Part shown: in pieces, positions 6,304 to 40,211 of the stretch | Layout: each line of letters opens with the position of its first letter | Numbering within the stretch: the first letter of the stretch is position 1 | From: Acidimicrobiales bacterium | GTDB taxonomy: Bacteria; Actinomycetota; Acidimicrobiia; Acidimicrobiales; CADCSY01 | NCBI GenBank assembly: GCA_035512495.1 | Contig: DATKDW010000023.1 | Span: 1 to 50,274, forward strand | Reading direction: 5' to 3' | DNA length: 50,274 bases | Notes under the pieces: generated by a model | Databases searched by the model: none | What the model was told of the DNA's origin: nothing | What the model saw: only the letters and a program-made list of their open reading frames with translations | Position numbers and translations under genes: made by a program

Positions 6304-7157
6304 GACGACCCACGGTGCTCGTCACCGGGGCCGGGGGCCAGCTCGGGACCGACCTGGTCGCCACCTTCGAGGCCGGCGGCCACCACGTCGTGGCTGCCGA
6401 CCGGGCCACCCTCGACGTGTCCGACCGCCACGCCGTGCTCCAGGCGCTCACCGGGGTGCGGCCCGAGCTCGTGGTGCACGCCGCGGCGTGGACGGCGGTC
6501 GACGCCTGCGAGTCCGACCCCGACCGCGCCTATGCCGTGAACGCCCTCGGCACCCGCCACGTGGCCGAGGGTGCCCGGCTGGTCGGTGCCCACGTGGTCG
6601 CGATCTCCACCGACTACGTCTTCGACGGCACCTCGGACCGGCCCTACGTGGAGTGGGACCAGCCCAACCCGCAGTCGGTGTACGGGCGCTCGAAGCTCGG
6701 CGGCGAGCTCGAGCTCGATCCGGCCGCCACGCTGGTGCGCACGGGGTGGGTGGTGGGTCCCCATGGCCACAACATGGCCAAGACGGTGCTGCGCCTCCAC
6801 GCCGAGGGCCGCCCGCTGGCCTTCGTCGACGACCAGCGGGGCAGCCCCACCACCACCGGCGACCTGGCGGCCGCCGTCTGCCGTCTGGCCGTGGCCCGCC
6901 AGCCCGGCACGTTCCACGTCACCAACCAGGGCGACACCACCTGGCACGGCTTCGCCCGCGCCGTGGTCGCCGCAGCCGGCGGCGATCCCGGGGCGGTGCG
7001 GGCCATCACCACCGCCGAGCTCGATCCGCCCCGTCAGGCACCCCGGCCCGCCATGTCGGTGCTCGACAACGCCGCCCTCCGGCTCCAGGGACTGCCCCTC
7101 CTGCCAGACTGGAAAGACTCGCTGGACCGACTGGTGAAGGAGCTCGTGGGTGAGTAG
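6300..7157 (+). CDS. rmlD: dTDP-4-dehydrorhamnose reductase
   Basis: 285 residues, NAD(P)H-dependent reductase giving dTDP-L-rhamnose. Seen: VLVTGAGGQLGTDLV, LDVSDRHAV, HAAAWTAVDACESD, NALGTRHVA, STDYVFDG, YGRSKLGGE (YxxxK), VRTGWVVG and DDQRGSPTTTGDLA, all standard for RmlD. Start GTG 6300 overlaps the rmlB stop. The stop at 7155-7157 lies 8 bases inside ugd. No 3,5-epimerase (rmlC) gene is present between rmlB and rmlD or elsewhere in the window, so it must be unlinked or the pathway must end differently. Confidence 0.92.
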   Translation: MRRPTVLVTGAGGQLGTDLVATFEAGGHHVVAADRATLDVSDRHAVLQALTGVRPELVVHAAAWTAVDACESDPDRAYAVNALGTRHVAEGARLVGAHVVAISTDYVFDGTSDRPYVEWDQPNPQSVYGRSKLGGELELDPAATLVRTGWVVGPHGHNMAKTVLRLHAEGRPLAFVDDQRGSPTTTGDLAAAVCRLAVARQPGTFHVTNQGDTTWHGFARAVVAAAGGDPGAVRAITTAELDPPRQAPRPAMSVLDNAALRLQGLPLLPDWKDSLDRLVKELVGE

Positions 7158-19932: not shown

Positions 19933-20889
19933 GTGACCACTGCCAGCCCTGAGACGGCCACCAACGTCATCGCCCCCCGGCGGTCCGTGCTCGAGCACGT
20001 GACCCAGCTGTGGCGCTACCGCGAGCTGCTCGGCAACCTCGTGCGCAAGGAGCTCAAGGTCAAGTACAAGGGCTCCAGCCTGGGGTTCCTGTGGTCGCTG
20101 CTGAACCCGGCGATGTACCTGGTGGTGTTCTACATCGCCTTCCAGATCGTGCTCGGCGCGGGCATCCCGTCGTTCGCGGTGTTCATCCTCACCGGGCTGC
20201 TGGCGTGGAACTTCTTCTCCATCGCCGCCGGCTCGTCGGTCAACGCCATCGTCGGCAACTCGTCGCTCGTCAACAAGGTGTACTTCCCCCGCGAGATCCT
20301 CCCGCTGGCGGCGGTGGGGGCCAACCTCGTCCACTTCGCCCTCCAGGCGCTCGTGCTGCTGCTGGTGATCGCCGGCGTGGAGATCTTCAAGGTGGTCGCC
20401 GACGTGACGCCCGAGCGGCTGGCGACGCTGCCCAACGTCGACGTCGCCTACCTGTGGCTCCTCGTGCCGGCGCTGGTCGCCCTCTTGCTGTTGACCTCGG
20501 CCTTCGGGGTCTTCCTGTCGTGCGTGAACGTCTACGCACGCGACACCCAGCACCTCCTCGAGCTGGCGCTGCTGGCGTGGTTCTGGATGACGCCGATCAT
20601 CTACCCCTGGGGCCTCCAGGCCGCCAAGGTGCCCACCTGGCTCACCCTGGTGAACCCCATCACCCCGATCGTGCTCGCCATCCAGCGCGCCCTCTACGGG
20701 ATCGTGGAGGCGCCCCCGGGCGGCATCGGCGTGCAGGGCCAGGCAGGGGTGGTGCTGCAGCTGCCGCCCGAGTCGCCGCTGTGGTACTTCCGCAACCTGG
20801 TCATCGTGGCCTTCGTCGCCACCGTCCTCCTCGGCCTCGCCTTCAAGCTCTTCGCCCGCCTCGAGGGCAACTTCGCCGAGGAGTTGTAG
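19933..20889 (+). CDS. wzm: Polysaccharide ABC exporter, permease subunit
   Basis: 318 residues, ABC-2 type permease of the Wzm/TagG/RfbA kind. Cytoplasmic start, then LVRKELKVKYKGSSLGFLWSLLNPAMYLVVFYIAFQ, the classic signature entry to helix 1, and about six membrane helices, including FAVFILTGLLAWNFFSIAAGS, LVHFALQALVLLLVIAGV, LWLLVPALVALLLLTSAFG and a final helix before KLFARLEGNFAEEL. ARDTQHLLELALLAWFWMTPIIYP is typical. It moves lipid-linked glycan from the inner to the outer leaflet with the adjacent ATPase. GTG 19933 was chosen for the AGGA site and homology start. Confidence 0.92.
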   Translation: MTTASPETATNVIAPRRSVLEHVTQLWRYRELLGNLVRKELKVKYKGSSLGFLWSLLNPAMYLVVFYIAFQIVLGAGIPSFAVFILTGLLAWNFFSIAAGSSVNAIVGNSSLVNKVYFPREILPLAAVGANLVHFALQALVLLLVIAGVEIFKVVADVTPERLATLPNVDVAYLWLLVPALVALLLLTSAFGVFLSCVNVYARDTQHLLELALLAWFWMTPIIYPWGLQAAKVPTWLTLVNPITPIVLAIQRALYGIVEAPPGGIGVQGQAGVVLQLPPESPLWYFRNLVIVAFVATVLLGLAFKLFARLEGNFAEEL

Positions 20890-20892
20890 ACG

Positions 20893-22146
20893 ATGGCGAA
20901 CGCGATCGAGGTGCGGGGCGTCTCCAAGCGCTTCCGGCTGAACACCGAGCGCCACTCGTCGCTGAAGGAGCGCGTCATCAACATCGGGCGGCGCAAGCCG
21001 GCCGAGGAGTTCTGGGCGCTGCGCGACATCGAGTTCGACGTGGAGGAGGGCCACACCGTCGGCCTCCTCGGTCACAACGGGTCGGGGAAGTCCACCCTGT
21101 TGAAGTGCACCGGCGGCATCCTCCAGCCCACCACCGGCGAGATCCGCACCCGCGGCCGGCTGGCCTCGCTGCTGGAGCTCGGTGCCGGCTTCCACCCCGA
21201 CCTCACCGGCCGAGAGAACGTCTACCTCAACGCCTCCATCCTCGGGATGTCACGGCGCGACATCGACATCCGCTTCGACGACATCGTCGGCTTCGCCGAG
21301 CTCGAGCAGTTCATCGACCAGCAGGTGAAGCACTACTCGTCGGGCATGTACGTGCGCCTCGGGTTCGCGGTGGCCACCAACGTCGAACCCGACCTCCTGC
21401 TCGTCGACGAGGTCCTGGCTGTCGGCGACGAGGCCTTCCAGCGCAAGTGCCTCGACAGGATCAAGACGTTCCAGAAGCAGGGCCGCACCATCGTCTTCGT
21501 GACCCACGGCGCTGACCTCGTCCGCCAGCTCTGCGACCGGGCGGTGGTGCTCGACCACGGCCGCCTCGTGATCGAGGGCACGCCGAGCGAGGCGGTGCGG
21601 ACCTTCCGCGAGCGCCTCCTCCTCGGCGCCACCGAGGCCGCCGAAGGCGCCGACGGCGCGAAGGACGACGCTCCGGCCCACGACCAGCGGGTGCGCATCA
21701 CCGAGGTCAGCATCGACTACCCCGAGGACGGTCGGCCCTACGTCCGCAACGGCGAACCCCTCACCGTCCGGGTGGCCTACGAGGCCGCCACGGCCGTGCC
21801 CGACGCCATCTTCGTCATGTCGCTGCATGGCCAGGACGGCCACATCGTCTACGGGAACAACACCTGGGCGGAGGGCATCCGCCTGCCGCCGCTGAAGGGC
21901 GCCGGCGAGATCTCGTTCACCTTCGTGTCGACGCCGCTGCTGGAGGGCACCTACCCGCTCACCGTCGGGGTCCACGGCCTCGAGGGTGGTGTGGTGTTCG
22001 ACTGGCGTGAGCAACAGCACCACGTCGACGTCATCAACGTCGAGGGCAAGCACACCTGGGGCGTGGTCGACGTGCCCTTCCGCGTGGGCCTCGACAAGAT
22101 GGCCCTCGCGGCCGGACACACCATCGAGGAGGCGACCCGCCCATGA
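20893..22146 (+). CDS. wzt: Polysaccharide ABC exporter, ATPase with C-terminal carbohydrate-binding domain
   Basis: 417 residues. N-terminal ABC domain: Walker A GLLGHNGSGKSTLLK, Q-loop region, signature QVKHYSSGMYVRLGFAVA, Walker B PDLLLVDEVLAVGDEAF and switch VTHGADL. From about residue 270 a beta-sandwich Wzt_C domain follows (VRITEVSIDYPEDG, PLTVRVAYEA, GTYPLTVGVHG, VFDWREQQHHVDV). In Wzt proteins this extra domain recognises the finished, often capped, O-glycan before export; capping by methylation would fit the methyltransferase-like gene directly downstream. It starts 3 bases after wzm and overlaps the next gene as ATGA. Confidence 0.93.
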   Translation: MANAIEVRGVSKRFRLNTERHSSLKERVINIGRRKPAEEFWALRDIEFDVEEGHTVGLLGHNGSGKSTLLKCTGGILQPTTGEIRTRGRLASLLELGAGFHPDLTGRENVYLNASILGMSRRDIDIRFDDIVGFAELEQFIDQQVKHYSSGMYVRLGFAVATNVEPDLLLVDEVLAVGDEAFQRKCLDRIKTFQKQGRTIVFVTHGADLVRQLCDRAVVLDHGRLVIEGTPSEAVRTFRERLLLGATEAAEGADGAKDDAPAHDQRVRITEVSIDYPEDGRPYVRNGEPLTVRVAYEAATAVPDAIFVMSLHGQDGHIVYGNNTWAEGIRLPPLKGAGEISFTFVSTPLLEGTYPLTVGVHGLEGGVVFDWREQQHHVDVINVEGKHTWGVVDVPFRVGLDKMALAAGHTIEEATRP

Positions 22147-23204
22147 GCACCGAGACCCCGGCCGGCGACGTGCCGGCGCTCGACCTCGACCGCGTCCGCC
22201 GCGAGATCGACGACGAGGTCCGCGCCCGGCGGGCCTCGGGCGACTTCCCGCCCGGCCTCGAGCGCGACCTCGACCTGATCTTCGCCCGCTTCGCCCCCGC
22301 CACCACCAGCGGCGACGACCTCGACGGCGTGCTCGAGGCCGCCGACCGCACCTCGTTCGTCAACGTCGACGTCCCCACCGCCTCCAACCTCCCCGGGGTC
22401 TCGTTCGTCAAGCGCCTCCTGCGCAAGCTGATGGCCTGGTACCTGCGGTACCTGGCCCAGCAGGTGTCGGTCTTCGCCACCTCCGCCGTCGCCGCACTCA
22501 AGCTCCTGGGCCGGCGGGTGGAGGCGCTCGAGGCGGCGTCACCTGGGGCCAACCCCCGGATCCTCGACGAGGGCCGCCACGTCGGCCCCACCGCCGACCC
22601 CGCCCCCTTCGCCACCCGGGTGGCCACCGAGATGGGCCGGGTCGGCGGCCGGGTCCTGGTGGCCGAGGTCGGCAGTGGCTCGCTCCTCCGGGACCTGGTG
22701 GACGCCGGGGTCGATGCCTACGGGCTCGACCCGGGCCACCACGCCGACCGGATCACCACCACCGGCCTCGAGGTCCGCGACGAGGAGACGGTCGCCCACC
22801 TGACCAACGTGGGGGAGGAGGCCCTCGACGGCCTCGTGCTCGCCGGCGGCGTCGACCGCCTCCCGCTGGGCGGCCAGCTGGCGCTGGTCGAGCGCGCCGC
22901 CGCGACCCTGGCCGACGGGGCGCTGCTGGTGGTCATCAGCACCACGCCCGCCGCCTGGGCGCAGGCCGTCGACCCCGTCGACGCCGACCTCGCCCCCGGC
23001 CGCCCCTTGCACCCCGCCACCTGGCGACACCTGCTCGAGCACCGGGGCTTCACCGACGTCGAGGTCCACGACGGGCCCGCCATCGGCACCCTCGACCGAG
23101 TCGACGGACCCGGCGCCGAGGTGCTCAACACCAACCTGGCCCGCATCGAGGCCGCCCTCTTCGGGCCGGCCAGCGTCGCCGTCACCGCCCGCCGCGCCCG
23201 CTGA
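22143..23204 (+). CDS. Methyltransferase-like protein with N-terminal helical region
   Basis: 353 residues. N-terminal 90 residues are charged and helical (LDRVRREIDDEVRARRASG, LERDLDLIFARFAP), followed by an amphipathic stretch LLRKLMAWYLRYLAQQVSVFATSAVAALKLL that may touch the membrane. From about 165: RVLVAEVGSGSLLRDLVDAGVDAYGLDP resembles SAM motif I with the second acidic strand, but the usual GCGxG is GSGS; LDGLVLAGGVDRLPLGGQLAL and LADGALLVVIST fit later motifs; HPATWRHLLEHRGFTDVEV is a common C-terminal feature. Catalytic competence is unclear. ATGA-coupled to wzt, so it may cap or time the glycan. Confidence 0.65.
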   Translation: MSTETPAGDVPALDLDRVRREIDDEVRARRASGDFPPGLERDLDLIFARFAPATTSGDDLDGVLEAADRTSFVNVDVPTASNLPGVSFVKRLLRKLMAWYLRYLAQQVSVFATSAVAALKLLGRRVEALEAASPGANPRILDEGRHVGPTADPAPFATRVATEMGRVGGRVLVAEVGSGSLLRDLVDAGVDAYGLDPGHHADRITTTGLEVRDEETVAHLTNVGEEALDGLVLAGGVDRLPLGGQLALVERAAATLADGALLVVISTTPAAWAQAVDPVDADLAPGRPLHPATWRHLLEHRGFTDVEVHDGPAIGTLDRVDGPGAEVLNTNLARIEAALFGPASVAVTARRAR

Positions 23205-28088: not shown

Positions 28089-29962
28089 GCGATCGAGTCC
28101 GCTCCGTGCGCAACCACCTCTCCTCAGCTGGCCTCGCCGGACTCCTGCTCGCCGTCTTGCTGGTGGTGGCGCCGAGCGCGGCGAGCGCCGACCCGGTGGC
28201 CCACGACGACCCCGCGTTGGCCGGGGCCGCCGGTCGCCTCGTGGTGCGCCTCGACACGCCGGCAGGGCCGGCCGAGCGCGCCGCCGCTGCGGCACGCCTC
28301 GGCGGGCGGGCCGCCATGGTCGTGGCCGACGACACCTTCGTCGTCGAGCTCGACGCCGGGACGGTCGGTGCCAAGGTCCGACAGGCCCGCGCCGACCCGG
28401 GGGTGGTCTGGGCCGAGCCCGACTCGGTCTACCGCAGCGCCCGGCTGCCCGACGACGAGTGCTTCCCCGGCTGCGACCAGCTCACCCGGGGCCAGACCGA
28501 GCTCGGGTCCGTCGGGGCGCCCGATGCCTGGAACACGACCACGGGCTCGAGCAGCGTGGTGGTGGCGGTGCTCGACACGCCCGCCAACGTCGACCACCCC
28601 GACCTGAGCGGCAAGGTGGAGCGCGGCCCCGTCTTCACCGACCCCGGCCGCACGTGCTTCAACGCCACCGAGGCGAGCCACGGCACCGCCGTCGCCGGGC
28701 TGGTGGGCGCGCGCACCAACAACACCACGGGGATGTCCTCGCTCGGCTGGCGCACGTCGGTGGTGTCGGTGGGGGTCCTCGACAATTGCGGGGAGGGCCG
28801 GGCAAGCGAGATCGCCGCCGGGATCCGCTGGTCGGCCGACCACGGTGCCCGGGTCATCAACCTGTCGCTGGTGGGTGGAGCCAACAGTGCCCTCGACGAC
28901 GCCGTCACCTACGCCCGGGCCTCGGGTGTGCTCGTGGTGGCCGCTGCCGGCAACGAGGGTGGCACGACGCCGCGCTACCCGGCGGCCTACCCCGGTGTGG
29001 TGGGGGTCGGCGCCACCGACAACGCCGGCACCGCCATCGCCTCCTTCTCCAACACCGGCACCTGGGTCGAGGTGGTCGCCCCCGGTGTCGGCATCTTCTC
29101 CACCTCCACCCTCACCGGCGGCTACCACGTCTACGACGGCACCTCGTTCGCCTCCCCACTCGTGGCCGCCTCGGCCGCCCTCGTGCTGGCGCACCGGCCC
29201 GAGCTCGGCGCCGACGACCTGGCACGGCGCATCTCCTGGTCGGCGGTGCGCATCCCCGGCTCGGGGACGCGTGTGGCGTCGGGCCGCCTCGACGCCGCCG
29301 GAGCCCTCGTCGACCCGCCCGCGGCCTATCGCACGGCGGCCAGCGACGGCGCCGTCTACGCCCTCGGCGAGGCCTCGTATCGGGGAGCCGCCAACTCGGC
29401 GCCGCTGAACCGGCCGATCGTCGGCTCCGCGGTGACGCCCTCGCCCCAGGTCGGCGGCGCCGGCAAGGGCGGCGGCTACTGGCTCGTGGCCAGCGACGGT
29501 GGGATCTTCAACTTCGGCGACGCCGGCTTCTACGGGTCGACGGGGGCGAAGCAGCTGAACAAGCCGATCGTGGGGATGGCGCCGACGCCGACCGGCCGGG
29601 GGTACTGGCTGGTGGCCAGCGACGGTGGGATCTTCACCTTCGGCGACGCCGCGTTCTTCGGCAGCACCGGGAGCCTCACCCTGAACCAGCCGATCGTGGG
29701 GATGTCGGCCCACCGGGACAGCGGCTACTGGCTCGTGGCCAGCGACGGTGGCATCTTCACCTTCGGCAGCGCCCCCTTCCACGGCTCATCGGCGGGGCAG
29801 TTGCCGGCCCCGGTCGTGGGGATGTCGCCCACCCGCGCCGGTGACGGCTACTGGATCGCCACCAGCGCCGGTCACGTCACGGCCTACGGCGCTGCCCTCG
29901 ACGCCGGCGGGGCCGAGGGCATCGTCAACGCCCCCATCGTCGCCATCAGCGCCGCCTCGTAG
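28085..29962 (+). CDS. Secreted subtilisin-family (S8) serine protease with five-repeat C-terminus
   Basis: 625 residues. Signal peptide: LAGLLLAVLLVVAPSAASA, cleavage probably after ASA. A propeptide-like segment follows (LVVRLDTPAG...FVVELD...DPGVVWAEPD), then the catalytic domain about 140-400: Asp in VVVAVLDTPANVDHPDL, His in ASHGTAVAGLVGA, oxyanion Asn in VVAAAGNEGG and Ser in YDGTSFASPLVAAS. The Asp motif has DTPANVDHPDL in place of the usual DTGV. Residues 414-625 form five GYWLVASDGGIF-type repeats like those of the upstream amidase. GTG 28085 overlaps the amidase stop. Role probably wall or surface protein processing; target unknown. Confidence 0.92.
   Translation: MSDRVRSVRNHLSSAGLAGLLLAVLLVVAPSAASADPVAHDDPALAGAAGRLVVRLDTPAGPAERAAAAARLGGRAAMVVADDTFVVELDAGTVGAKVRQARADPGVVWAEPDSVYRSARLPDDECFPGCDQLTRGQTELGSVGAPDAWNTTTGSSSVVVAVLDTPANVDHPDLSGKVERGPVFTDPGRTCFNATEASHGTAVAGLVGARTNNTTGMSSLGWRTSVVSVGVLDNCGEGRASEIAAGIRWSADHGARVINLSLVGGANSALDDAVTYARASGVLVVAAAGNEGGTTPRYPAAYPGVVGVGATDNAGTAIASFSNTGTWVEVVAPGVGIFSTSTLTGGYHVYDGTSFASPLVAASAALVLAHRPELGADDLARRISWSAVRIPGSGTRVASGRLDAAGALVDPPAAYRTAASDGAVYALGEASYRGAANSAPLNRPIVGSAVTPSPQVGGAGKGGGYWLVASDGGIFNFGDAGFYGSTGAKQLNKPIVGMAPTPTGRGYWLVASDGGIFTFGDAAFFGSTGSLTLNQPIVGMSAHRDSGYWLVASDGGIFTFGSAPFHGSSAGQLPAPVVGMSPTRAGDGYWIATSAGHVTAYGAALDAGGAEGIVNAPIVAISAAS
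29324..29959 (+). repeat. Five protein repeats (protease C-terminus), putative propeller
   Basis: Units begin AYRTA, GYWLV, GYWLV, GYWLV and GYWIA, 41-42 residues each in the middle. The three central units share near-identical DNA around GGCTACTGGCT(C/G)GTGGCCAG, pointing to recent internal duplication or conversion. Confidence 0.85.
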
Positions 29963-30044: not shown

Positions 30045-30080
30045 ATGCCTGCCGTGCCGACCGACCGACCCACCGCGTGA
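30045..30080 (+). CDS. Possible 11-codon leader peptide coupled to rmd
   Basis: ATG at 30045 reads MPAVPTDRPTA and stops at TGA 30078-30080, which overlaps the rmd GTG (30077) as GTGA. With TAGCAT 8 bases upstream, transcription would begin at this ATG, so the peptide would be translated from a leaderless message and ribosomes would be delivered to rmd by coupling. No Shine-Dalgarno is visible for rmd itself. Proline-rich content could slow ribosomes. This is inference from spacing only. Confidence 0.35.
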   Translation: MPAVPTDRPTA

Positions 30081-30982
30081 AGGCGCTCATCACCGGTGCC
30101 GGGGGGTTCGTCGGGGGCTACCTCACCGATCACCTCGAGGCCAGCGGCGACGAGGTGGTCGGCTCCGACTCCGAGGTCGACATCACCGACGGCGAGGCGA
30201 TCCGACGGCTGATCACCGGGGAAGCCCCCGATGTCGTGTACCACCTGGCCGCCGCCAGCCACGTTGGCAGCTCGTGGTCGGCACCCGTCGAGGTGCTGCG
30301 GGTCAACGCCGAGGGGACGCTCAACGTCCTCCTTGCGTGCAGCGAGGCCGAGGTCGACCGCGTGTTGGTGGTCGGCAGCGCCGAGGAGTACGGCCTGGTC
30401 GCGCCCGACCAGCTACCGCTGGCCGAGACGGCACCGCTGCGGCCGGTCAGCCCGTACGGAGCCTCCAAGGTGGCAGCGGAGCACCTCGCCCTCCAGGCCC
30501 ACCTCGGCCGGGGGCTCGGCACGATCATGGCCCGGCCGTTCAACCACCTCGGCCCCGGTCAGTCGGACCGGCTCGTGGCGTCGACCCTCGCCCACCAGGT
30601 CGCCCGCAACGAGGCCGACGGCACCGACGTGATCCTCGCCGGCGACCTCAGCCCCCGGCGCGACTTCACCGACGTCCGCGACGTCGTGCGCGCCTACCGG
30701 CTGCTGGTTGAGCGGGGCGAGCCGGGCGAGGTCTACAACGTGTGCTCGGGCGAGGACCTGCCGGTGCGCGAGGTGGCCGAGCAGCTCATCGGCCTGTCGG
30801 GCCGAGAGATGCGCATCGAGCTCGATCCCGAGCGCCTCCGTCCGGTCGACCTCCCCGCCCTCCGCGGCGACAACTCCAAGCTCCGGGCGGCCACCGGCTG
30901 GACGCCGGAGATCCCCCTCTCGAAGACGCTCACCGATCTCCTCGAGTGGTGGCGGGCGCGCGTGGCCGAGGGCGAGGGGTAG
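30077..30982 (+). CDS. rmd: GDP-6-deoxy-D-mannose (4-keto) reductase
   Basis: 301 residues, extended SDR: ALITGAGGFVGGYLTDHL, VDITDGEAI, VVYHLAAASHVGSSW, VVGSAEEYG (a marker of Rmd), VSPYGASKVAAEHLA (YxxxK), ARPFNHLGPGQSDRLV and RRDFTDVRDVVRAY. It would reduce GDP-4-keto-6-deoxymannose to GDP-D-rhamnose, the product of Gmd encoded just downstream on the other strand. GDP-fucose synthase is less likely because its motifs differ. GTG 30077 starts the conserved domain; longer readings include leader sequence. Confidence 0.88.
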   Translation: MKALITGAGGFVGGYLTDHLEASGDEVVGSDSEVDITDGEAIRRLITGEAPDVVYHLAAASHVGSSWSAPVEVLRVNAEGTLNVLLACSEAEVDRVLVVGSAEEYGLVAPDQLPLAETAPLRPVSPYGASKVAAEHLALQAHLGRGLGTIMARPFNHLGPGQSDRLVASTLAHQVARNEADGTDVILAGDLSPRRDFTDVRDVVRAYRLLVERGEPGEVYNVCSGEDLPVREVAEQLIGLSGREMRIELDPERLRPVDLPALRGDNSKLRAATGWTPEIPLSKTLTDLLEWWRARVAEGEG

Positions 30983-31062: not shown

Positions 31063-32570
<1,508 letters not shown>

Positions 32571-32582
32571 CCCGACGGTCCT

Positions 32583-34439
32583 CTACGGGACCGCACTCCG
32601 TTCGACCGTTCCCTCCTCCACCAGGAGGTCGAGGAGCCGGGCGAGGAACGACGCCATCTGCTCCCGCTGGACGTGCCCGGCGGGTCCGTACAGGTGGGGG
32701 TGCTCACGGCCGCCGGTGATGCCGGCGAAGGCGAGGGCGTTGATGGCGGGCTCGTGGACGTCGTTGGCGTCGTCGGCGAAGTAGTCCGCCGTCGGCGCCA
32801 GCGTGAGGCCGCCGCGGTGCTCGTGGGCCCGCACGAGCAGTGACGCCATCTGGGCCCGGGTGACGGGAGCCTCCGGCCCGTAGGTGCCGTCGGATCGCCC
32901 GCCGATCACGCCGGCGGCGGCGAGTCGGTTGATGGCGTCGCGGTGGACGGTGTGGCTGATGTCGGGGTAGCGATCATCGGTGGCGGCGGGCAACGAGCCG
33001 CCGGTCCGCTCGATCATCCGGGCGAGGAAGGTTGCCATCTGGCCTCGATCGAGGCGCACGCCCGGTGAGTAGCGGCCGGGGCTGGTGCCGGTGGTGAGCG
33101 CCCAGCGCACGACGCAGTCGATGGCGTCCCTGTGGGGGCTGGACTCGACGACGTCGGTGAAGTCGCTCGACGAGCCGCCAGGCGGGCAGGCGTCGTCGGT
33201 CGACCGCACGGAGGCGGTGGCGACCGTGCCGGGGACGGGCAGGAGCACCAGCGCCGTGGTCACCGGCCGCTCGACCCGGCCGGGGTCGCTCGGGCGGTTC
33301 ACCACCCGGCTGTTGACGACGAAGGTGGTGGAACCGCCTCCGTCGAGGTTGAGGGCCTCGACCGCTCCGAGGGCGATCAGCAGATCGGCCGCCTCGCTCA
33401 GGGGCATGCCCTCGCTGTGGCCGGGCTGGCGGCCGTCGACGGTGACGAGCAGCAGCTCACCCGACGCCGTCCACCCCACCACGGTGCGGGGGTGGCGACC
33501 GCGGGTGAAGGTGTCGGGGTTGTCGGGGAACCATCGGTGCGCGTCCCGTACGAGGGTCGGTGAGCCGCCGAGCATCTCGACCACGTCGCCGGGGTCGACG
33601 GTGACGGTGGCCTGCCGTTCGCCGCTGCTGGTCACCTGGTGCCAGAGGGCCTGGATGGCGTCGGCGCCACGCCCGTGGCCGGAGAGGACGACCTGGTTGG
33701 GCTGGATCGGCGTGTTGCCGGGCACCCGCAGCTCGGCGATGTGCACCGGGGTCCCGCCGGCGGCCCGGCCCCACGGGCCGCCCTGCAGCTCGAGGACCAG
33801 CTCCCGGCCGTGGTCGTTGGTAAGGGTGGAGGGTCCGAAGCGGGGGGTGTAGAGCACCAGCGAATCGGCGACGCGCGGCCGGTTGACGCGGTCGATCGTG
33901 ATCGCCTCGGTGCCGGCCGGGGCGAGGATGAGGTCGAAGGTGGGGTCGTGGGTGATCGACGGCCGGCTCTGGCCGTCGAGCGAGAACAGGCCCATGCGGA
34001 TGCCCGACGTTCGGATCACCTCGCCGTCGGCCACGACCGGCCCGACGGCCCCCAGGCCGTCGTGCTCGGTGTAGTCGCCGTTGACCGCCACCAGGCACCG
34101 GACGCGCAGGCACATCGACGACGTGGTCTCCGTCCGCTGCGTCCCGGCCACCTGGTCGTGGGCGGTCATCACCCGCAGCCGACCGGCCAGCTCGGGGGCG
34201 ATGCGGGCCACGTGCACGTCCTGGGCGGCGGGGTGGTCGAGGCGGATGTGCCAGTGCATGGCCCCGGTGTCGACGTGGTTGCGGGCGCGGAGCTGCCAGC
34301 CGTGGGGGACGGCCTCGCCCGCGGCCTGAGCCGGTGCCCGGGCGCCGGACGTCAGCCCGGCCGCGACGACGAGGGTCGCCAGCGCGGCCACCTGCCACGC
34401 CCGCAGCCGCCCCGATCGCCCGCTTCCGCCTGGTTGCAC
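32583..34439 (-). CDS. Secreted phosphodiester glycosidase (NAGPA domain) with three SLH domains
   Basis: About 618 residues. The N-terminus has a basic region then AWQVAALATLVVAAGLTSGARAPAQAAG, a signal peptide. The NAGPA/DUF2233-type domain includes CLVAVNGDYTEHDGLG, ITHDPTFDLILAP, RTVVGWTASGELLLVTVDGRQPG, GMPLSEAADLLIALGA and ALNLDGGGSTTFVV. Related enzymes remove GlcNAc or other sugars held by phosphodiester bonds. From about residue 440 three SLH modules (FTDV..., YPDI..., FADD..., each ending RxQMAxxLxR) would hold it to the wall polymer. GTG 34439 precedes the signal peptide, but the exact start is uncertain because no clear ribosome site is seen. Confidence 0.82.
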   Translation of the reverse strand: MQPGGSGRSGRLRAWQVAALATLVVAAGLTSGARAPAQAAGEAVPHGWQLRARNHVDTGAMHWHIRLDHPAAQDVHVARIAPELAGRLRVMTAHDQVAGTQRTETTSSMCLRVRCLVAVNGDYTEHDGLGAVGPVVADGEVIRTSGIRMGLFSLDGQSRPSITHDPTFDLILAPAGTEAITIDRVNRPRVADSLVLYTPRFGPSTLTNDHGRELVLELQGGPWGRAAGGTPVHIAELRVPGNTPIQPNQVVLSGHGRGADAIQALWHQVTSSGERQATVTVDPGDVVEMLGGSPTLVRDAHRWFPDNPDTFTRGRHPRTVVGWTASGELLLVTVDGRQPGHSEGMPLSEAADLLIALGAVEALNLDGGGSTTFVVNSRVVNRPSDPGRVERPVTTALVLLPVPGTVATASVRSTDDACPPGGSSSDFTDVVESSPHRDAIDCVVRWALTTGTSPGRYSPGVRLDRGQMATFLARMIERTGGSLPAATDDRYPDISHTVHRDAINRLAAAGVIGGRSDGTYGPEAPVTRAQMASLLVRAHEHRGGLTLAPTADYFADDANDVHEPAINALAFAGITGGREHPHLYGPAGHVQREQMASFLARLLDLLVEEGTVERSAVP

Positions 34440-34504: not shown

Positions 34505-36919
34505 TCAGGGCAGTGAGGCCACCAGCTCGAGGAGGCGGTCGGCGACGTCGTCGAGGGTCCAGGACTCGGCGTATCGGCGTCCGGCCTCGTCCAGGGAGGC
34601 GAGGCGGGCGGGGTCGGCCAGGAGGCGCACCAGGTGTCGGCCCAGCGCCGCTGCGCCCACGTCGTGGGCGACCAGGTCGACGGTGCCCTCGGGCAGCTCG
34701 GTGGCCGACGCCGCGTTGGTGACGACCGGAGTGCCGGCGGCCAGGCAGTCGAGCACGGCGGCCGAGCTCTCCCCGTTGGTGCCCAGTCGCAGCTGCACGG
34801 CGCAGGTGACCTCGGCCAGCCAGCGCTCGTACTCGACGCCCCCGACGTGGCCGGTGATGGTGACCGCGGCCGTCACGCCCGCCGCGTCGGCCAGCTGCTC
34901 GAGGTGGGAGCGGTAGACGTCGTCGACCGGGCCGACCAGCACCAGGCGGGCCCCGGGGGCGGCGGCCAGCACCGTGCGCAGGGCGGTGATGAGCATCTCC
35001 ACGCCCTTCACCGGGGCCACCATCCCGAAGCAGGCGACCACCGGCGCCGATGCGGGTGCCCGACCCCCGGGGGCTCCGCTGGGGACGGGTGGGGCCCCGA
35101 GGGGGACGACCCACGTCGGTGTCGAGGCTGCATCGGGCTGCTGGTCGAGCCGCAGGATCCGGTCGGCCACCTTCGAGCTGACGATCACGCCGCGCGCCTG
35201 GTCCACCAGCTCCTTCGACAGGCCGAGCCCGGCGTGGAGGAACGGGATGGTGATGGCGTCGGACACCGGCCCCTCGACGCCCGACGGCAACCGCCTCCGG
35301 TACTGGCGGAGCAGGCGCTCGCGGATGAAGGCATCGCCCGACCCGGCGGGCACCCGCTCGCGTGCGTACGTCAGGTAGAGCCCGGGGAGTCGCACGTCGT
35401 GCATCCAGAGGATCCCCGGGAGCTCCTGGGCCAGGTCGTAGAGGTCGTGGTGGTCGTCGCTGTTGCCGACGGTGTAGACGATGGCGTCGTACGACCACGG
35501 GTTGGCGGTGCGACCGAGCGCCCGCACCGGGAACCACCCGGCGTCGAGGGCGTCGAGGCCGGCGGGGCGCCGGGTCGGGGAGAAGACGTCGAGCTCGCAG
35601 CGGTGAGCCAGCACCGGCGCCAGGCGCCCGTTGTAGTCGGCGATGCCCGACCGCACCGGCGGCATGGGTCCGACCAGGGCGATGCGAACCGGTGCGCTGG
35701 CACTCGCCCACCCCCCGGGCGGGGGCCGCAGCGAGGCGAGTCGGCTGCCCACGGCGGCGACGGTCCGCTCGGCCACCGCCTCCCACGTCAAGGTCGGCAC
35801 GCGCGCCGCCCCTCGTGCCGTCAGCTCGTCCCGGAAGCCCTCATCGGCCAGGCCGCGGTCGATGGCGCCCGCCATCTCGTCGACGTCGGTGGGGTCGAAG
35901 GTGGAGCCGTCCCAGTCGAGGACCTCCGGCATGGACGACGTCGACGACGTGATCGCCGGGCAGCCGCACGCGATGGCCTCGGCCACGGGCAGCCCGAAGC
36001 CCTCGTAGAGCGGGGGGAAGACGAAGAGGTCAGCGCTGCGGTAGAGGGCGCGCAGCACCTCGTCGGAGATCCAGCCGATCACGACGAGGTCGCCCTCGGC
36101 CAGGCCGGCGACGCGTGCGAGCTCGTGCCAGGCCTCCAGCGTGGCGTCGTCGACGTCGGAGCGGACCACCAGCTGGCGGCGCCCACGGGTGGAGGGGGGC
36201 ACCCGACCCCATGCTTCGATGAGGCGTTCGCTGTTCTTGCGGGGGTCGCCGCCGGCCAAGGTGAAGACGAAGGGGGCGCGGACCTCGGGCAGGTGGCGGG
36301 CGAGGGTGGCGAGCGGGTCGTCGTCGGCGGTGGCGGGGGAGAAGTAGGCCGAGACACCCGCTCCCACGCTCACGACCCGGTCGGGTGCCAGCCCGAGGTG
36401 CTCGATGGCGTCGCGGCGGGTGTGCTGCGAGATGGTCAGCGTGAGGTCGGCCGAGGCCAGCCACTCGACCCGGGCCCGGTAGCGGCGCTCGAAGCGCCGG
36501 TCGACGAGGTAGCGCTCGGCGTGCAGCAGCGGGATCAGGTCGTACAGCGTGGTGATGAGGGGGAGGGAGGCCGAGACGACGTGCGGGGGGACGTCGGCCT
36601 CCACCCACGGTGAGATCTCGAACGGGGACATGGCGTGGTACGCCAGCGGCTCCGGCGAGCGCCTGGCTGCCCGGCGGAGCTCGGACATGGTGCTCCACGC
36701 CAGCTCGGGCGCGGTCAGCAGATCCTCGTCGAGGTGCTTCGGGAACGGCTGGCTGGGGTTCAACAGCAGCGCCTCCACGACGCCGAGGCGCCGCAGGGCA
36801 CGGGCCTGCTCCTTGGTGTAACGAGCGACCCCGCGGTCGGCGTGCACCGGGCTCTGGGTCGCCTGCAGGTCGAGGGCGAGCCGGTGCTCGAGCCCCCCCG
36901 GACCGTGGGCGTCGCTCAC
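34505..36919 (-). CDS. Double-domain GT4-GT4 glycosyltransferase
   Basis: 804 residues, twice the usual length. Domain 1 (about 1-395): RLALDLQATQSPVHADRGVARYTKEQARAL, TLYDLIPLLHAERYL, LTISQHTRRDAI, FVFTLAGGDPRKNSERLIEAW and PPLYEGFGLPVAEAIACG. Domain 2 (about 400-804): RIALVGPMPPVRSGIADYNGRLAPVL, WMHDVRLPGLYL, VVACFGMVAPVKGVEMLI, RLVLVGPVDDVYRSHLEQL and LGTNGESSAAVLDCLAAG. In domain 2 the second acidic residue is Asp rather than Glu. Two linked transferases could build a disaccharide repeat. Linker rich in Ala/Pro/Gly. GTG 36919 overlaps the upstream methyltransferase stop. Confidence 0.88.
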   Translation of the reverse strand: MSDAHGPGGLEHRLALDLQATQSPVHADRGVARYTKEQARALRRLGVVEALLLNPSQPFPKHLDEDLLTAPELAWSTMSELRRAARRSPEPLAYHAMSPFEISPWVEADVPPHVVSASLPLITTLYDLIPLLHAERYLVDRRFERRYRARVEWLASADLTLTISQHTRRDAIEHLGLAPDRVVSVGAGVSAYFSPATADDDPLATLARHLPEVRAPFVFTLAGGDPRKNSERLIEAWGRVPPSTRGRRQLVVRSDVDDATLEAWHELARVAGLAEGDLVVIGWISDEVLRALYRSADLFVFPPLYEGFGLPVAEAIACGCPAITSSTSSMPEVLDWDGSTFDPTDVDEMAGAIDRGLADEGFRDELTARGAARVPTLTWEAVAERTVAAVGSRLASLRPPPGGWASASAPVRIALVGPMPPVRSGIADYNGRLAPVLAHRCELDVFSPTRRPAGLDALDAGWFPVRALGRTANPWSYDAIVYTVGNSDDHHDLYDLAQELPGILWMHDVRLPGLYLTYARERVPAGSGDAFIRERLLRQYRRRLPSGVEGPVSDAITIPFLHAGLGLSKELVDQARGVIVSSKVADRILRLDQQPDAASTPTWVVPLGAPPVPSGAPGGRAPASAPVVACFGMVAPVKGVEMLITALRTVLAAAPGARLVLVGPVDDVYRSHLEQLADAAGVTAAVTITGHVGGVEYERWLAEVTCAVQLRLGTNGESSAAVLDCLAAGTPVVTNAASATELPEGTVDLVAHDVGAAALGRHLVRLLADPARLASLDEAGRRYAESWTLDDVADRLLELVASLP

Positions 36920-38112
36920 GTCGGCGGCGTTGCCCGGAGCAGCACCACGCCGCGGGTGCCGTCGTCCCAGCGCGAGGACGGCGGCGGCCCGTCACCACCG
37001 ACGGGCTCCCAGGTGGCCGGTCCGGTCTGGGCGCAGGTGCGGCGGTCGACGATCGTCCAGCCCTCGAAGAGGGTGACGAGGTGGGCCTCGTCGTACACGC
37101 GCTGTTGCTCGCCGCGCTCCCAGCGGCCGTAGGGAGCAGTGAAGGTGAGCTCGCCTCCGGGTCGGAGCCACTGCCCGAACAAGGAGAGGATCGTGTGGTC
37201 GAGGTCGCCGTCGGTGGGCTCCTCGTCGTAGGCGCCGAGGCCGACGTGCTCGAGGGCCGAGATGCACAGCACCGCGTCGAGCGGGCGCGGGGGCCCGGCC
37301 CAGCGTTCGATTGGCCCCGTGACGGCGGTGATGCCGGGGTGGGCGAAGGGGTGGGGCCGGAGATCGGCGGCGAGGACCTCGAGGCCGAGCGACGCCAGCG
37401 ACAGGGCGATGGTCGACTCGGCGGCACCGAAGTCGAGGACGAGCGACCCGGTCGGGAGGCCCGCCACCGCGGCGAAGGCGTAGGGGATCTCGACGATGCG
37501 CTCGTTGACCTCGTTGGTGCGCACCGAGCCGGGTTCGTGGAGGACGGTGACCGGGGGGTTGAACCAGACCGCGGCCTGTCCCGAGGGACTGGTGTGGCCT
37601 CCCGCCCAGTTGAGCAGCGTGGCCAGGCCCGGCCCCATGGCATCGAGGTCGGTGCCGACGAGCTCACCGGCGACCCGGTCGGCGGCGGCGGGGACCATCC
37701 GGACGAGCAGTCGCGCCAGCTCGAGGTCGGCCTCGGCATCACCGGCCGCCGAGCGGCCGATCAGCGCGGGCAGGGTCGGCTCCTGCGGGGCCAGGATGCG
37801 CAGGAGGCCGTCCATCTCCTGGCGGAGCAGCTCGCTCGTCCGGCGGATCGTCACCATCGCCTCGGTCGCCACCTGCACGTCGACATCGACACTGCCCTGC
37901 ATGGCGGTGACCCGCTCCTGGATGTCGGCGACCCGGTCCTCGACGCGATCGACCCGCCGGTCGATCCGCGGACCGATCTGGTGCTCGACGACCTCGTCGA
38001 GGTGACGGTGGACGTCGGTGGTCCGCTCGTCGACGTGGGTCCTCACCGGGCCGGTGACCCGGCGCGACAGGCGATCGAGCAGACCCCGCACTCCTACCAC
38101 TGCACCGTCCAA
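36916..38112 (-). CDS. SAM-dependent methyltransferase with N-terminal coiled coil
   Basis: About 398 residues. The first 110 are strongly charged and heptad-like (HVDERTTDVHRHLDEVVEH, RRVDRVEDRVADIQERVTAM), a probable coiled coil that could measure chain length or form oligomers. The class I methyltransferase domain follows at about 225: SLVLDFGAAESTIALSLASLG (motif I), VLAADLRPHPF, LDAVLCISALEHVGLG and LRPGGELTFTAPYG. Context between a GT4 fusion and wall proteins suggests methylation of a glycan, as with chain-terminating WbdD-like enzymes, though no kinase domain is present. TTG 38112 has AGGAG 8 bases upstream; GTG 38100 is the alternative start. Confidence 0.82.
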   Translation of the reverse strand: MDGAVVGVRGLLDRLSRRVTGPVRTHVDERTTDVHRHLDEVVEHQIGPRIDRRVDRVEDRVADIQERVTAMQGSVDVDVQVATEAMVTIRRTSELLRQEMDGLLRILAPQEPTLPALIGRSAAGDAEADLELARLLVRMVPAAADRVAGELVGTDLDAMGPGLATLLNWAGGHTSPSGQAAVWFNPPVTVLHEPGSVRTNEVNERIVEIPYAFAAVAGLPTGSLVLDFGAAESTIALSLASLGLEVLAADLRPHPFAHPGITAVTGPIERWAGPPRPLDAVLCISALEHVGLGAYDEEPTDGDLDHTILSLFGQWLRPGGELTFTAPYGRWERGEQQRVYDEAHLVTLFEGWTIVDRRTCAQTGPATWEPVGGDGPPPSSRWDDGTRGVVLLRATPPT

Positions 38113-38141: not shown

Positions 38142-38221
38142 GGCCAGCTGGGCGGCGACGCATCGCCCTCGGCCTGCGGTCGGCCGGCCCGAGGTGCGGT
38201 CGGGGGGTGAGAGGCGAGCGG

Positions 38222-38234: not shown

Positions 38235-40211
38235 GTGCTCACACGATCTGCTCCCGGTTGCGGCCGGAAATCGCGTCTGCGGCGCACCGCACTCGTTGCC
38301 CTGCTCCTGGCGGTGACCGCCCTCCCGTCACTGGCCCGCACGGCTCCCGCCGAGGCCCAGGTGGGCGCCGAGGTGGGGTTCGAGGGCAGGGGATGGGGCC
38401 ACGGCCGCGGCCTCGGGCAGTACGGCTCGCTCGGCTACGCCCTCGGCCAGGACCGCACCTACGACTGGATCCTCGACCACTTCTACGGCGGGACGACCAA
38501 GGGCACCCAGGCCGACGCCCCCATCTCGGTGCGCCTGAGCGAGCACGACGGCAAGGACATGATCGTCACCTCCGGCGCGGCGTTCACCGTGGGCGGGGAG
38601 GCGGGCATCCAGCGCCCGCCGGGCAGCGCGGCGCGGGTGCGCCGCACGGCCGACGGCACCTGGGCCATCGACGCCGGGCCGGGCACGACCGAGGCAGGCG
38701 ACCCCTGCGCCGGCCCCTGGGAGGAGGCCCTGGCCGGCATCGATGCCACCCAGCGCCCCGAGGCCAAGCTGGTGGTGCCCTACGCCGGCGACGACGTCGG
38801 GCTCATGATCCAGGTCTGCGGGGCCAACCTCCGCCACTACCGCGGCTCGGTGATGGCCCTGGCCATCGACGGCGTCACCCGCGTCGTCAACCACGTCGCC
38901 ATGGAGCAGTACCTGCGTGGGGTCGTGCCCCGCGAGTCGCCGGCCTCGTGGGGCGACCTCGGTGGCGGCAAGGGCATGGAGCAGCTCAAGTCCCAGGCGG
39001 TGGCCGCCCGCTCCTACGCCTGGGGCGAGAACCGCCACGCGCTGTTCAAGACCTGCGACACCACCGCGTGCCAGGTCTACGGCGGGGCCGGCCTCAACGG
39101 CGTGCGCATCGAGCACGCCAACACCGACCAGGCGCTGGCGGCCACCGGGGGGGAGGTCCGCCTCCACACGTCCGGGACGAACGCCGGCAAGGTCGCCCGC
39201 ACCGAGTTCTCGTCGTCGACCGGCGGGCACACCGCCGGCGGCACGTTCCCCGCCGTGGTCGACGAGGGCGACGGCTACCTGGTGAACGGCAAGCCCCTCA
39301 ACCCGAACCACACCTGGAGCACCACGGTCGCGGTGGCCAAGATCGAGGAGGCCTTCCCCACCATCGGCGACTTCCAGAGCATCCGGGTGCTGAAGCGCAA
39401 CGGCCTGGGCGCCGACGGCGGCCGGGTGGTCGAGGTGGCGGTCAACGGCTCTACGGCGTCGGTGACCGTCAGCGGGCTGGCCTTCCGGTCGGCCCTCCAG
39501 CTCAAGTCCGACTGGTTCACGGTGGTGACGCCCACCTACGACCCCGTCCCCACCTCGCGCGACACGAGCCTGTTCGCCTGCCCGCCGCCCGACGTCCCCG
39601 ACTCGGGCTTCGTCGACATCGCCGAGAACACCTTCGAGGACGAGATCGAGTGCCTGCGCTGGTACCTCATCGCCGCCGGGGGCCCCGGCGGACGGCCGGC
39701 GGATCAGTACGCGCCGACGCTGGCCGTGAGCCGGGCCCAGATGGCGACGTTCGTCGTCCGCATGCTCGACCACATCGACGGCGCGCTGCTGGAGCCCTAC
39801 GACGGCACCAACCGCTTCACCGACGTCCCCGACGACAGCCCGCACGTCGAGTCGATCAACCGCCTGGCCGGAGCGGGGATCGTCTCGGGCGGAGCCGGTG
39901 GGGGACCGGCCACGTCCTTCTCGCCGGACGTCGACGTCTCGCGAGCCCAGATGGCCAGCTTCATGGCGAGGAGCCTGAAGGCGGTCACCGGCAACGCGGT
40001 GTGCGCCGTCGCGCAGGACTTCTTCGCCGACGACGGTGGCGACGTCCACGAGAACTGCATCAACGGTCTCGCCGCCCTGGCCATCGTCGGGGGCACCGGT
40101 CCGCAGCAATACAGCCCGGGCCTGCCGGTCACCAGGGCCCAGCTGTCAGCCTTCGTGATGCGAACCGTCGACCTCCTGGTGGAGGCAGGCAAGACCAGCC
40201 CGCCAGCGTAA
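38235..40211 (+). CDS. SpoIID/LytB-domain protein with three SLH domains, secreted
   Basis: 658 residues. Signal peptide: RTALVALLLAVTALPSLARTAPAEA, cleavage before QVGAEV. GRGWGHGRGLGQYGSLGYA at about 50-70 is the SpoIID/LytB glycine signature; VAMEQYLRGVVPRESPASWG and EQLKSQAVAARSYAWGENRH form the core of the SpoIID domain, a lytic transglycosylase acting on denuded glycan strands in endospore formers. Non-sporulating actinobacteria carry such domains too, with unclear substrate. Residues 455-650 hold three SLH modules (FVDIAENTFEDEIECLRWY, FTDVPDDSPHVESINRLAGAGI, FFADDGGDVHENCINGLAALAI). Same wall-anchoring module as the protein at 32583. Confidence 0.9.
   Translation: MLTRSAPGCGRKSRLRRTALVALLLAVTALPSLARTAPAEAQVGAEVGFEGRGWGHGRGLGQYGSLGYALGQDRTYDWILDHFYGGTTKGTQADAPISVRLSEHDGKDMIVTSGAAFTVGGEAGIQRPPGSAARVRRTADGTWAIDAGPGTTEAGDPCAGPWEEALAGIDATQRPEAKLVVPYAGDDVGLMIQVCGANLRHYRGSVMALAIDGVTRVVNHVAMEQYLRGVVPRESPASWGDLGGGKGMEQLKSQAVAARSYAWGENRHALFKTCDTTACQVYGGAGLNGVRIEHANTDQALAATGGEVRLHTSGTNAGKVARTEFSSSTGGHTAGGTFPAVVDEGDGYLVNGKPLNPNHTWSTTVAVAKIEEAFPTIGDFQSIRVLKRNGLGADGGRVVEVAVNGSTASVTVSGLAFRSALQLKSDWFTVVTPTYDPVPTSRDTSLFACPPPDVPDSGFVDIAENTFEDEIECLRWYLIAAGGPGGRPADQYAPTLAVSRAQMATFVVRMLDHIDGALLEPYDGTNRFTDVPDDSPHVESINRLAGAGIVSGGAGGGPATSFSPDVDVSRAQMASFMARSLKAVTGNAVCAVAQDFFADDGGDVHENCINGLAALAIVGGTGPQQYSPGLPVTRAQLSAFVMRTVDLLVEAGKTSPPA

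Follow-up and report, generated by a model that had tools for sequence, protein, structure and literature searches.

Introduction

Chain-length control by a terminator that carries a coiled coil has been worked out in a few Gram-negative O antigens. In Escherichia coli O8 and O9a, the gene of the terminator WbdD lies immediately upstream of the gene of the dual-GT4 polymerase WbdA. WbdD unites a methyltransferase (MT) and a coiled coil in one protein, the coiled coil being C-terminal to the catalytic domain and ending in a region that recruits the polymerase, and the Wzt of these systems has a C-terminal carbohydrate-binding domain. The gene order in E. coli HS is wzm-wzt-(708-aa methyltransferase)-wbdA, where we took the 708-aa methyltransferase as WbdD. 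The O12 glycan of Klebsiella pneumoniae ends in Kdo. According to the portion of PMC11231755 used here, K. pneumoniae O7 ORF6 and O12 WbbB combine a terminator, a coiled coil and two glycosyltransferase (GT) modules in one machine, and the O7 terminus is a methyltransferase-kinase product. For the S-layer glycan of Geobacillus stearothermophilus, excerpts of PMC2943079 describe WsaE as a methyltransferase with two rhamnosyltransferase modules, and a 2-O-methyl cap and its reading by Wzt were proposed there. In the Wzt of Aquifex aeolicus, Asn313, Thr346, His350 and Trp362 sit at bound 3-O-methyl-mannose, as given in part of PMC9445017.

Here we describe what appears to be an inverted version of the WbdD–WbdA arrangement in a high-GC, probably actinobacterial lineage. 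It lies in a stretch of 50,274 nucleotides, which we call the window.

The dual glycosyltransferase and its partner

The central pair of genes and the parts of the second are:
34505 to 36919, minus strand: dual GT4 glycosyltransferase of 804 aa, proposed chain polymerase (ORF and Pfam)
36916 to 38112, minus strand: partner with a basic N-terminal helix, a coiled coil and a class I SAM methyltransferase domain (ORF, heptad score, AlphaFold and fold search)
37781 to 38091, minus strand, borders approximate: N-terminal helix and coiled-coil module of the partner, also present in MT-less relatives
36919 to 37632, minus strand, borders approximate: methyltransferase domain, with VLDFGAAEST at the SAM-binding position

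A first-pass annotation had described an 804-residue GT4-GT4 fusion overlapping a methyltransferase gene, and both observations were confirmed. The GT gene starts with GTG, Pfam found Glycos_transf_1 and Glyco_trans_1_4 in two stretches each, and the two genes share 4 bases; in E. coli HS, wbdA and the gene of the 708-aa methyltransferase are 10 bases apart. In GT module 1, E306 and E314 were invariant in all 15 aligned homologs, and their spacing is that of the EX7E motif. Sequence comparison shows this module to be a homologue of WbdA from E. coli (E 8e-49, with 33% identity across 300 aa); no clear homology was seen when module 2 was compared in sequence with module 2 of WbdA.

In-frame starts of the partner include ATG at 38163 (415 aa), TTG at 38112 (398 aa) and GTG at 38091 (391 aa). 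The first-pass annotation implied TTG 38112 as the start, and by eye an AGGAG lies eight bases 5' of it. The N-terminal coiled coil that it had proposed is beyond chance expectation: the best 28-residue heptad score in residues 25–130 (415-aa numbering) was 1.00, and none of the shuffles, at 0.42 ± 0.11, equalled it. The score is home-made and not a published predictor; up to 500 shuffles were used, and those with no proline-free window were dropped. AlphaFold placed helices at residues 15–64 and 71–100 of the 391-aa form, with low confidence there (block pLDDT 38–54).

C-terminal to the coiled coil, the partner carries a class I SAM methyltransferase domain. In Pfam, DUF268 (19.0 bits) and Methyltransf_12 (17.9 bits) both stayed below their cut-offs, and the partners of two relatives, L025 and L029, passed the Methyltransf_23 cut-off. 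In a Foldseek search, the 50 matches listed were all SAM methyltransferases, and in hhalign the MT profile matched WbdD with E 1e-6 and a probability of 91% over 67 columns only. As the first-pass annotation had said, a kinase domain was found neither in Pfam nor among the 50 fold matches listed.

The coiled coil is the constant part of the partner

We compared 34 readable GT4-GT4 loci, taken from the order and class surveys. A helical or coiled-coil partner was encoded directly upstream of the GT4-GT4 gene in 30 of them, with a 4-base overlap in 13 of the 30. Eight loci of the 34 had a full-length fused MT, one partner (G115, 210 aa) had a decayed MT with no Pfam MT match, and 21 consisted of the coiled coil alone (77–141 aa, lengths that are estimates because the starts were hand-picked at a conserved basic stretch). 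The partner was assigned by eye in G058, G131, G255, G081 and G325a, where automatic calling had put the GT start at another position, and the FkbM label and the coiled coils of G102 and G039 were also judged by eye. Across these loci, what stays constant in the partner is the coiled coil rather than the MT.

A heptad signal (p ≤ 0.05) was obtained for 28 of 32 partner sequences versus 4 of the 54 control proteins, out of 60 drawn, that were scored; the test was not significant for the partners of G140, G058, G131 and G420. The median charge of the N-terminal 30 residues was +3 in the 32 partners versus 0 in 192 controls, and the amphipathic test, which is suggestive only, was positive in 13 of 32 partners versus 9 of 80 controls. 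Controls came from the gene calls of the window and L025–L041, without L029, L038 and L040 and largely without L030 and L037.

With a profile of the coiled-coil-only partners, 8 of 11 MT-fused N-termini scored above all 550 shuffles (best 9.5 bits) and 5 above every one of 196 control proteins (highest 16.6 bits), while those of G058, G131 and G420 stayed below 6 bits. In the reverse search, 13 of 21 coiled-coil-only partners exceeded every one of 420 shuffles (best 11.4); the best control (15.3) was exceeded by 6 of the 21. Composition limits the case for homology among the coiled coils. No kinship was detectable between the N-terminal module of the partners and the C-terminal module of WbdD-like proteins, for which the highest-scoring partner reached 11.1 bits and the highest-scoring shuffle 7.5. 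Seven MT-less stubs from other phyla were scored against the latter: L072, L078 and L082 matched at 54.3, 24.5 and 34.4 bits, where 350 shuffles reached 7.5 at most, and L068, L074, L077 and L079 did not match. L072 is the sole clean MT-less stub among them, because the contig begins within L078 and a separate FkbM-like gene stands just upstream of L082.

The full-length MTs scored 314–358 bits with an MT profile that is partly circular, having been built from all but one of the ten full-length copies to which it was applied, that of the window included. On the GT tree, the MT label switches at least 5 times, and 3 of these switches are forced by well-supported branches. We searched for the MT domain in 24 genomes lacking an intact fused copy, some of them incomplete (the 21 coiled-coil-only genomes, G115, G030, where the partner is cut off, and G560). 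Only three weak matches were found (E 2e-7, 5.7e-7 and 7.7e-4), all on contigs other than that of the GT4-GT4 locus. It is unlikely that the coiled-coil-only genes are assembly or frameshift artefacts, since a missing MT would have to sit between the coiled coil and the GT, where the coiled-coil reading frame often ends inside or a few bases from the GT start, and since the search of these 24 genomes gave only the three matches. Generic methyltransferases of other types occur near some GT4-GT4 loci.

Export and sugar-precursor genes

The following genes elsewhere in the window may belong to the same pathway:
19933 to 20889, plus strand: Wzm, ABC-2 permease
20893 to 22146, plus strand: Wzt with C-terminal carbohydrate-binding domain
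22143 to 23204, plus strand: protein of 353 aa with an N-terminal helical stretch and a weak methyltransferase-like domain
30077 to 30982, plus strand: probable RMD reductase (best solved relative 2pk3, E 9.8e-68)
31063 to 32046, minus strand: GDP-mannose 4,6-dehydratase, GMD (TIGR01472 above cut-off)

The C-terminal domain ascribed to Wzt at first pass was recovered (Wzt_C, PF14524, 70.5 bits, cut-off 30.4). Residues 12–380 match Aquifex Wzt (E 1.5e-68), and four of eight cap-pocket residues are kept: N323, T357, H361 and W371 correspond to Asn313, Thr346, His350 and Trp362, the Trp being the one that stacks on the methyl group. The other four are changed, with M309, S310, G359 and L363 at Aquifex Ile299, Leu300, Ala348 and Met353. 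Among 13 readable actinobacterial Wzt proteins, both the Asn and the Trp are kept only in the window and in the coiled-coil-only G374, whereas the MT-bearing G017, G058, G131 and L060 lack the pair; all nine readable Wzt proteins among the other named relatives (L062–L086) keep both. We therefore rejected the pocket as a family-wide marker of the MT, and conclude that the MT and an Aquifex-like pocket are not coupled. Some 12 kb separate the end of Wzt and the dual GT4 gene, a distance that the first-pass annotation did not mention.

The second methyltransferase-like gene, likewise absent from the first-pass annotation, directly follows that of Wzt. In five relatives, all coiled-coil-only, a member of this 353-aa family stands head-to-head with the coiled-coil/GT4-GT4 pair, so we did not accept that loss of the fused MT means loss of a cap. 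This protein and the other GT4 genes could serve the same glycan.

No NCBIfam model scored above cut-off for the probable RMD. Together with GMD it would probably yield GDP-D-rhamnose, and both lie beside the partner and GT4-GT4 genes, as they also do in the sister genome G013. The window contains RmlA, RmlB and RmlD as well, all above NCBIfam cut-offs, so that L-rhamnose is possible instead. A methyl-capped D-rhamnan is a sensible prediction, because Wzt keeps half of the pocket residues and the GDP-D-rhamnose genes adjoin.

Discussion

We propose, at roughly even chances and by analogy, that the locus encodes a machine of the WbdA/WbdD kind whose terminator is inverted, in which tethering and recruitment would be the conserved core and the methyl terminator optional. 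The GT4-GT4 protein would be the cytoplasmic polymerase of a polysaccharide, probably a D-rhamnan, exported by the ABC transporter, and the upstream gene would supply its membrane partner. The basic N-terminus of the partner would sit on the membrane, and its coiled coil would form oligomers and bring in the polymerase. The C-terminal methyltransferase, placed at the other end of this rod, would O-methylate the non-reducing end of the chain, which would stop growth, set the length and label the chain for Wzt. The complex would thus work as E. coli O8 WbdD does with WbdA, with coiled coil and methyltransferase in swapped order. The conserved core of the partner is probably a membrane tether.

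The full model suggested by the first-pass annotation goes further: a methyl cap would end the chain, and the coiled coil would act as a ruler on which chain length depends. Its parts are those of WbdD and WbdA, Wzt has the cap-reading domain and the coiled coil is of sizeable length, but coiled coils are also retained in genomes in which the search did not find the fused cap enzyme, so that their general role cannot be to measure the distance to this cap. The likeness to WbdA/WbdD-type systems was upheld by gene order, module 1, the class I MT, the coiled coil and the Wzt domain; against the cap as the essence of the system speak the 21 coiled-coil-only loci among the 34 and the three weak MT matches in 24 genomes, and we regard the full ruler model as possible but doubtful. 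The same 21 loci favour a partner that is only a membrane tether or scaffold, the MT decorating sugars along the chain or being vestigial and other proteins, such as Wzt or the second MT-like protein, setting the length. The decayed MT of G115, the repeated switches on the GT tree and the five head-to-head MT-like genes point the same way. Yet the MT is full-length in eight loci, with high scores from the partly circular profile, and the window Wzt keeps part of the methyl-cap pocket; this explanation seems to us rather unlikely. That the partner and GT genes are loose operon neighbours without physical coupling is very improbable: Wzm/Wzt and single-module GT4 genes do lie some 8–18 kb from the pair, but the pairing recurs in 30 loci, 13 with the 4-base overlap, and the layout equals that of wbdD–wbdA.

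Beyond the inverted machine that we prefer, a bolder and quite tentative idea, which we would not expect to hold, is that these polymerases have the coiled-coil partner as their original and obligate part. It would be a short rod, bound to the membrane, on which the working of the dual GT4 depends and which itself sets chain length or processivity, and cap enzymes (the MT in the window, others in other phyla) would have been added to its free end and lost again. If this were true, WbdD-type terminators would represent a single specialised form within a widespread system in which the cap is optional. Natural variants with the rod and without the MT offer material for asking if the rod serves to measure length, to recruit the polymerase or to do both, and bear on the export of uncapped or differently capped chains.

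Comparison with known systems

The window resembles E. coli O8/O9a in having the putative terminator gene immediately upstream of the dual-GT4 gene, MT and coiled coil in one protein, and a Wzt with a C-terminal carbohydrate-binding domain. It differs in that its coiled coil is N-terminal and, from O9a WbdD, in having no kinase. The first-pass annotation rightly noted the missing kinase; as a simpler variant it is not new, since a kinase-free, MT-only terminator is already known from O8 WbdD, as stated in the part of PMC3482155 used here. WsaE, likened here by description and not by sequence, is one polypeptide and K. pneumoniae O7 ORF6 and O12 WbbB are fused in one protein, whereas in the window the parts lie on two genes. 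The closest solved relative of the window Wzt belongs to the Wzm-Wzt of A. aeolicus, whose O antigen is rich in D-rhamnose; the window has genes predicted to make GDP-D-rhamnose. What is new here is the inverted domain order and a coiled coil, rather than an MT, as the constant part.

The gene pair and the partner protein

The pair consists of two minus-strand open reading frames of the window, the partner gene first and the GT4-GT4 gene next.

38163, 38112 or 38091 (alternative starts) to 36916, minus strand: partner, coiled-coil methyltransferase gene (ORF reading)
34505-36919, minus strand: GT4-GT4 protein of 804 aa with two GT4 modules (ORF reading, domain search)

The first-pass annotation had described a two-GT4 protein of 804 aa overlapping a coiled-coil methyltransferase gene; both frames were indeed present and had 4 bases in common. 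The start chosen there, 38112, is a TTG with AGGAG 8 bases upstream, as judged by eye. The same architecture was found in two named relatives, labelled actinobacterium and Acidimicrobiales, which makes an actinobacterial host likely. The G+C content of the window was 73%, and the only match of the methyltransferase in its own 2.8-Mb, 97-contig assembly was the window itself.

Heptad scoring gave a strong pattern in the N-terminal part of the partner, which also carries a basic amphipathic stretch (charge +3, moment p 0.010). An AlphaFold model built with three sequences had a mean pLDDT of 57.6, higher in the methyltransferase domain, and together with Foldseek it predicted a class I SAM methyltransferase at the C-terminus, with TehB as the top match among those listed (E 3.5e-7). 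The Pfam methyltransferase signal was below threshold in the window copy and above it in both relatives tested. No kinase match was seen among the matches listed. The predicted fold and the heptads agree with the earlier description of a methyltransferase with an N-terminal coiled coil, and the lack of a kinase match among those listed agrees with its kinase-free reading.

SLH-domain proteins lie on both sides of the pair, a phosphodiester glycosidase-SLH protein (32583-34391, minus) and a SpoIID-SLH protein (38313-40211, plus), which raises the possibility that the glycan is an S-layer anchor.

Partners of GT4-GT4 proteins in relatives

At E <= 1e-60, GT4-GT4 homologs turned up in 18 of the 148 genomes searched in the order and in 29 of the 395 in the class, the latter possibly an undercount as only two candidates were scored per genome. 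The upstream gene was read at 36 loci, the window and 35 others; contig ends cut two (G030 and G325b), which left 34 readable. A coiled coil-methyltransferase partner was present in eight (the window, its sister genome G013, G062, G017, G058, G131, G420, truncated at the N-terminus, and G235), and a decayed form of 210 aa in one (G115). The helical or coiled-coil part stood alone in 21 of the 34 (77-141 aa, with starts chosen by hand), the partner was by eye an apparent FkbM-type methyltransferase in two (G102, G039), and such a partner was absent in two (G066, G462). Two additional named loci, L060 and L061, had the coiled coil-methyltransferase form. At the G115 locus (L026:3693-8353), three small, seemingly helical genes lie near GT genes, one of which (108 aa) precedes a single-module GT4.

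In the phylum survey, GT4-GT4 was found in 6 of 296 genomes and the methyltransferase domain in 3 of 396. Contig C21 of G560 carried a coiled-coil-only partner and a second GT copy; no partner was seen by eye on G648 C5, G648 C114 and G560 C57. G568 had a methyltransferase with a basic N-terminus, and GT4-GT4 was not found within the fetched 16-kb stretch.

Profile comparisons suggest that many of the coiled-coil-only partners are, within limits, the same module as the methyltransferase-fused N-termini. Against the profile of the coiled-coil-only partners, 8 of the 11 fused N-termini scored above all 550 shuffles and 5 above every one of 196 control proteins; the control in second place was itself a small, apparently coiled-coil gene preceding another GT4. 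The reverse profile placed 13 of the 21 coiled-coil-only proteins above all 420 shuffles and 6 above the best control. The strongest link was coiled-coil-only G139 (34.2 bits), which has LIHAVKNELV in common with methyltransferase-bearing relatives. Neither Pfam, run on seven coiled-coil-only proteins and on that of G115, nor NCBIfam, run on four and on that of G115, gave a match above cut-off.

On the GT tree, made by a quick method with SH-aLRT support only, the methyltransferase label required at least five changes, three of them forced by well-supported branches. G139 was placed within a clade of six, otherwise methyltransferase-bearing, and so reads as a loss; whether the earliest state was with or without the methyltransferase the tree does not say. 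A search for the methyltransferase domain in 24 genomes (the 21 coiled-coil-only ones, G115, G030 and G560) returned three weak matches (E 2e-7 to 7.7e-4), all on other contigs. We read the pair as a real and new form of the known polymerase-terminator systems, with a conserved rod and an optional cap enzyme.

Wzt, a second helical protein and predicted sugar supply

Two further genes bear on the putative cap.

20893-22146, plus strand: Wzt (Aquifex Wzt aligned over residues 12-380)
22143-23204, plus strand: helical N-terminal stretch and weak methyltransferase-like domain (weak Methyltransf_23), directly after wzt

Asn313, Thr346, His350 and Trp362 of Aquifex Wzt surround 3-O-methyl-mannose, according to PMC9445017. 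All four are kept in the window Wzt (N323, T357, H361, W371), and the other four pocket residues compared differ. Across actinobacterial relatives the pocket residues did not track the presence of the methyltransferase, so the pocket may support a methyl cap in the window genome and is no family rule.

The 22143-23204 protein, which may contribute to the capping or take it over, had matches in 14 of the 37 genomes searched, with scores above 150 bits for 8. In five coiled-coil-only relatives (G259, G255, G194, G163, G159) its homologs lie head-to-head with the coiled-coil/GT4-GT4 pair; G030 has the N-terminal part alone at one locus and a fuller copy on another contig. Relatives of this protein carry a 'VDRL'-like motif, which we take to occupy the place of the EHL-type motif of typical methyltransferases, and the G031 version is more degraded.

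GMD and a reductase most similar to the GDP-D-rhamnose enzyme 2pk3 adjoin the pair, also in G013, whereas in several relatives dTDP-L-rhamnose genes lie near by instead. Since RmlA, RmlB and RmlD are also in the window, a D-rhamnan with a terminal O-methyl stays a prediction, not a finding. A mycosin-like subtilase (28106-29962, plus; TIGR03921 183.7 bits, below the cut-off of 278.75) adjoins the glycan genes. A probable intein, which carries a LAGLIDADG domain, splits the UDP-glucose dehydrogenase gene (7150-9816, plus); in the G013 GMD gene (L025:5445-7451), a single frame of 668 aa, the two parts that match are separated by about 950 bases, perhaps an intein.

Comparison with known systems

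A scan of named organisms gave at least 80 loci, of which 31 (L060-L090) were read, and an upstream ORF was picked for 23 non-actinobacterial ones. A methyltransferase motif stood at the N-terminus of thirteen of these ORFs (8 class I, 5 FkbM), that is, the WbdD-like order as seen from this motif alone; Pfam confirmed a methyltransferase in all four submitted and had no match for six short upstream ORFs. L072 had a WbdD-like C-terminal module (54.3 bits), and four methyltransferase queries found no match within its 14.4-kb locus. In the gammaproteobacterial locus L068 (4924-5995), a short ORF without methyltransferase lies ahead of GT4, Wzt is short (253 aa) without a C-terminal domain, and the same number of methyltransferase queries gave no match.

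Searches of an open-licence library, judged by titles and abstract openings, gave no coiled-coil-only partner of a dual-GT4 polymerase and no WbdD-like system in Actinobacteria. WsaE is described in PMC2943079, and PMC3482155 states that O8 WbdD is a simple methyltransferase, that WbdA is recruited by the C-terminal region of WbdD, and that wbdD mutants produce polymer without exporting it. The gene order in E. coli HS is wzm-wzt-methyltransferase-wbdA; the methyltransferase, annotated as class I SAM-dependent and nothing more, was taken as WbdD because of its place and its length of 708 aa, which PMC3482155 gives for O9a. Homology to WbdA is found in module 1 of the window GT4-GT4 protein (33% identity over 300 aa, E 8e-49) and is not clear in module 2. 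The window methyltransferase is distantly similar to WbdD across the SAM region, but in the window partner the coiled coil precedes the methyltransferase.
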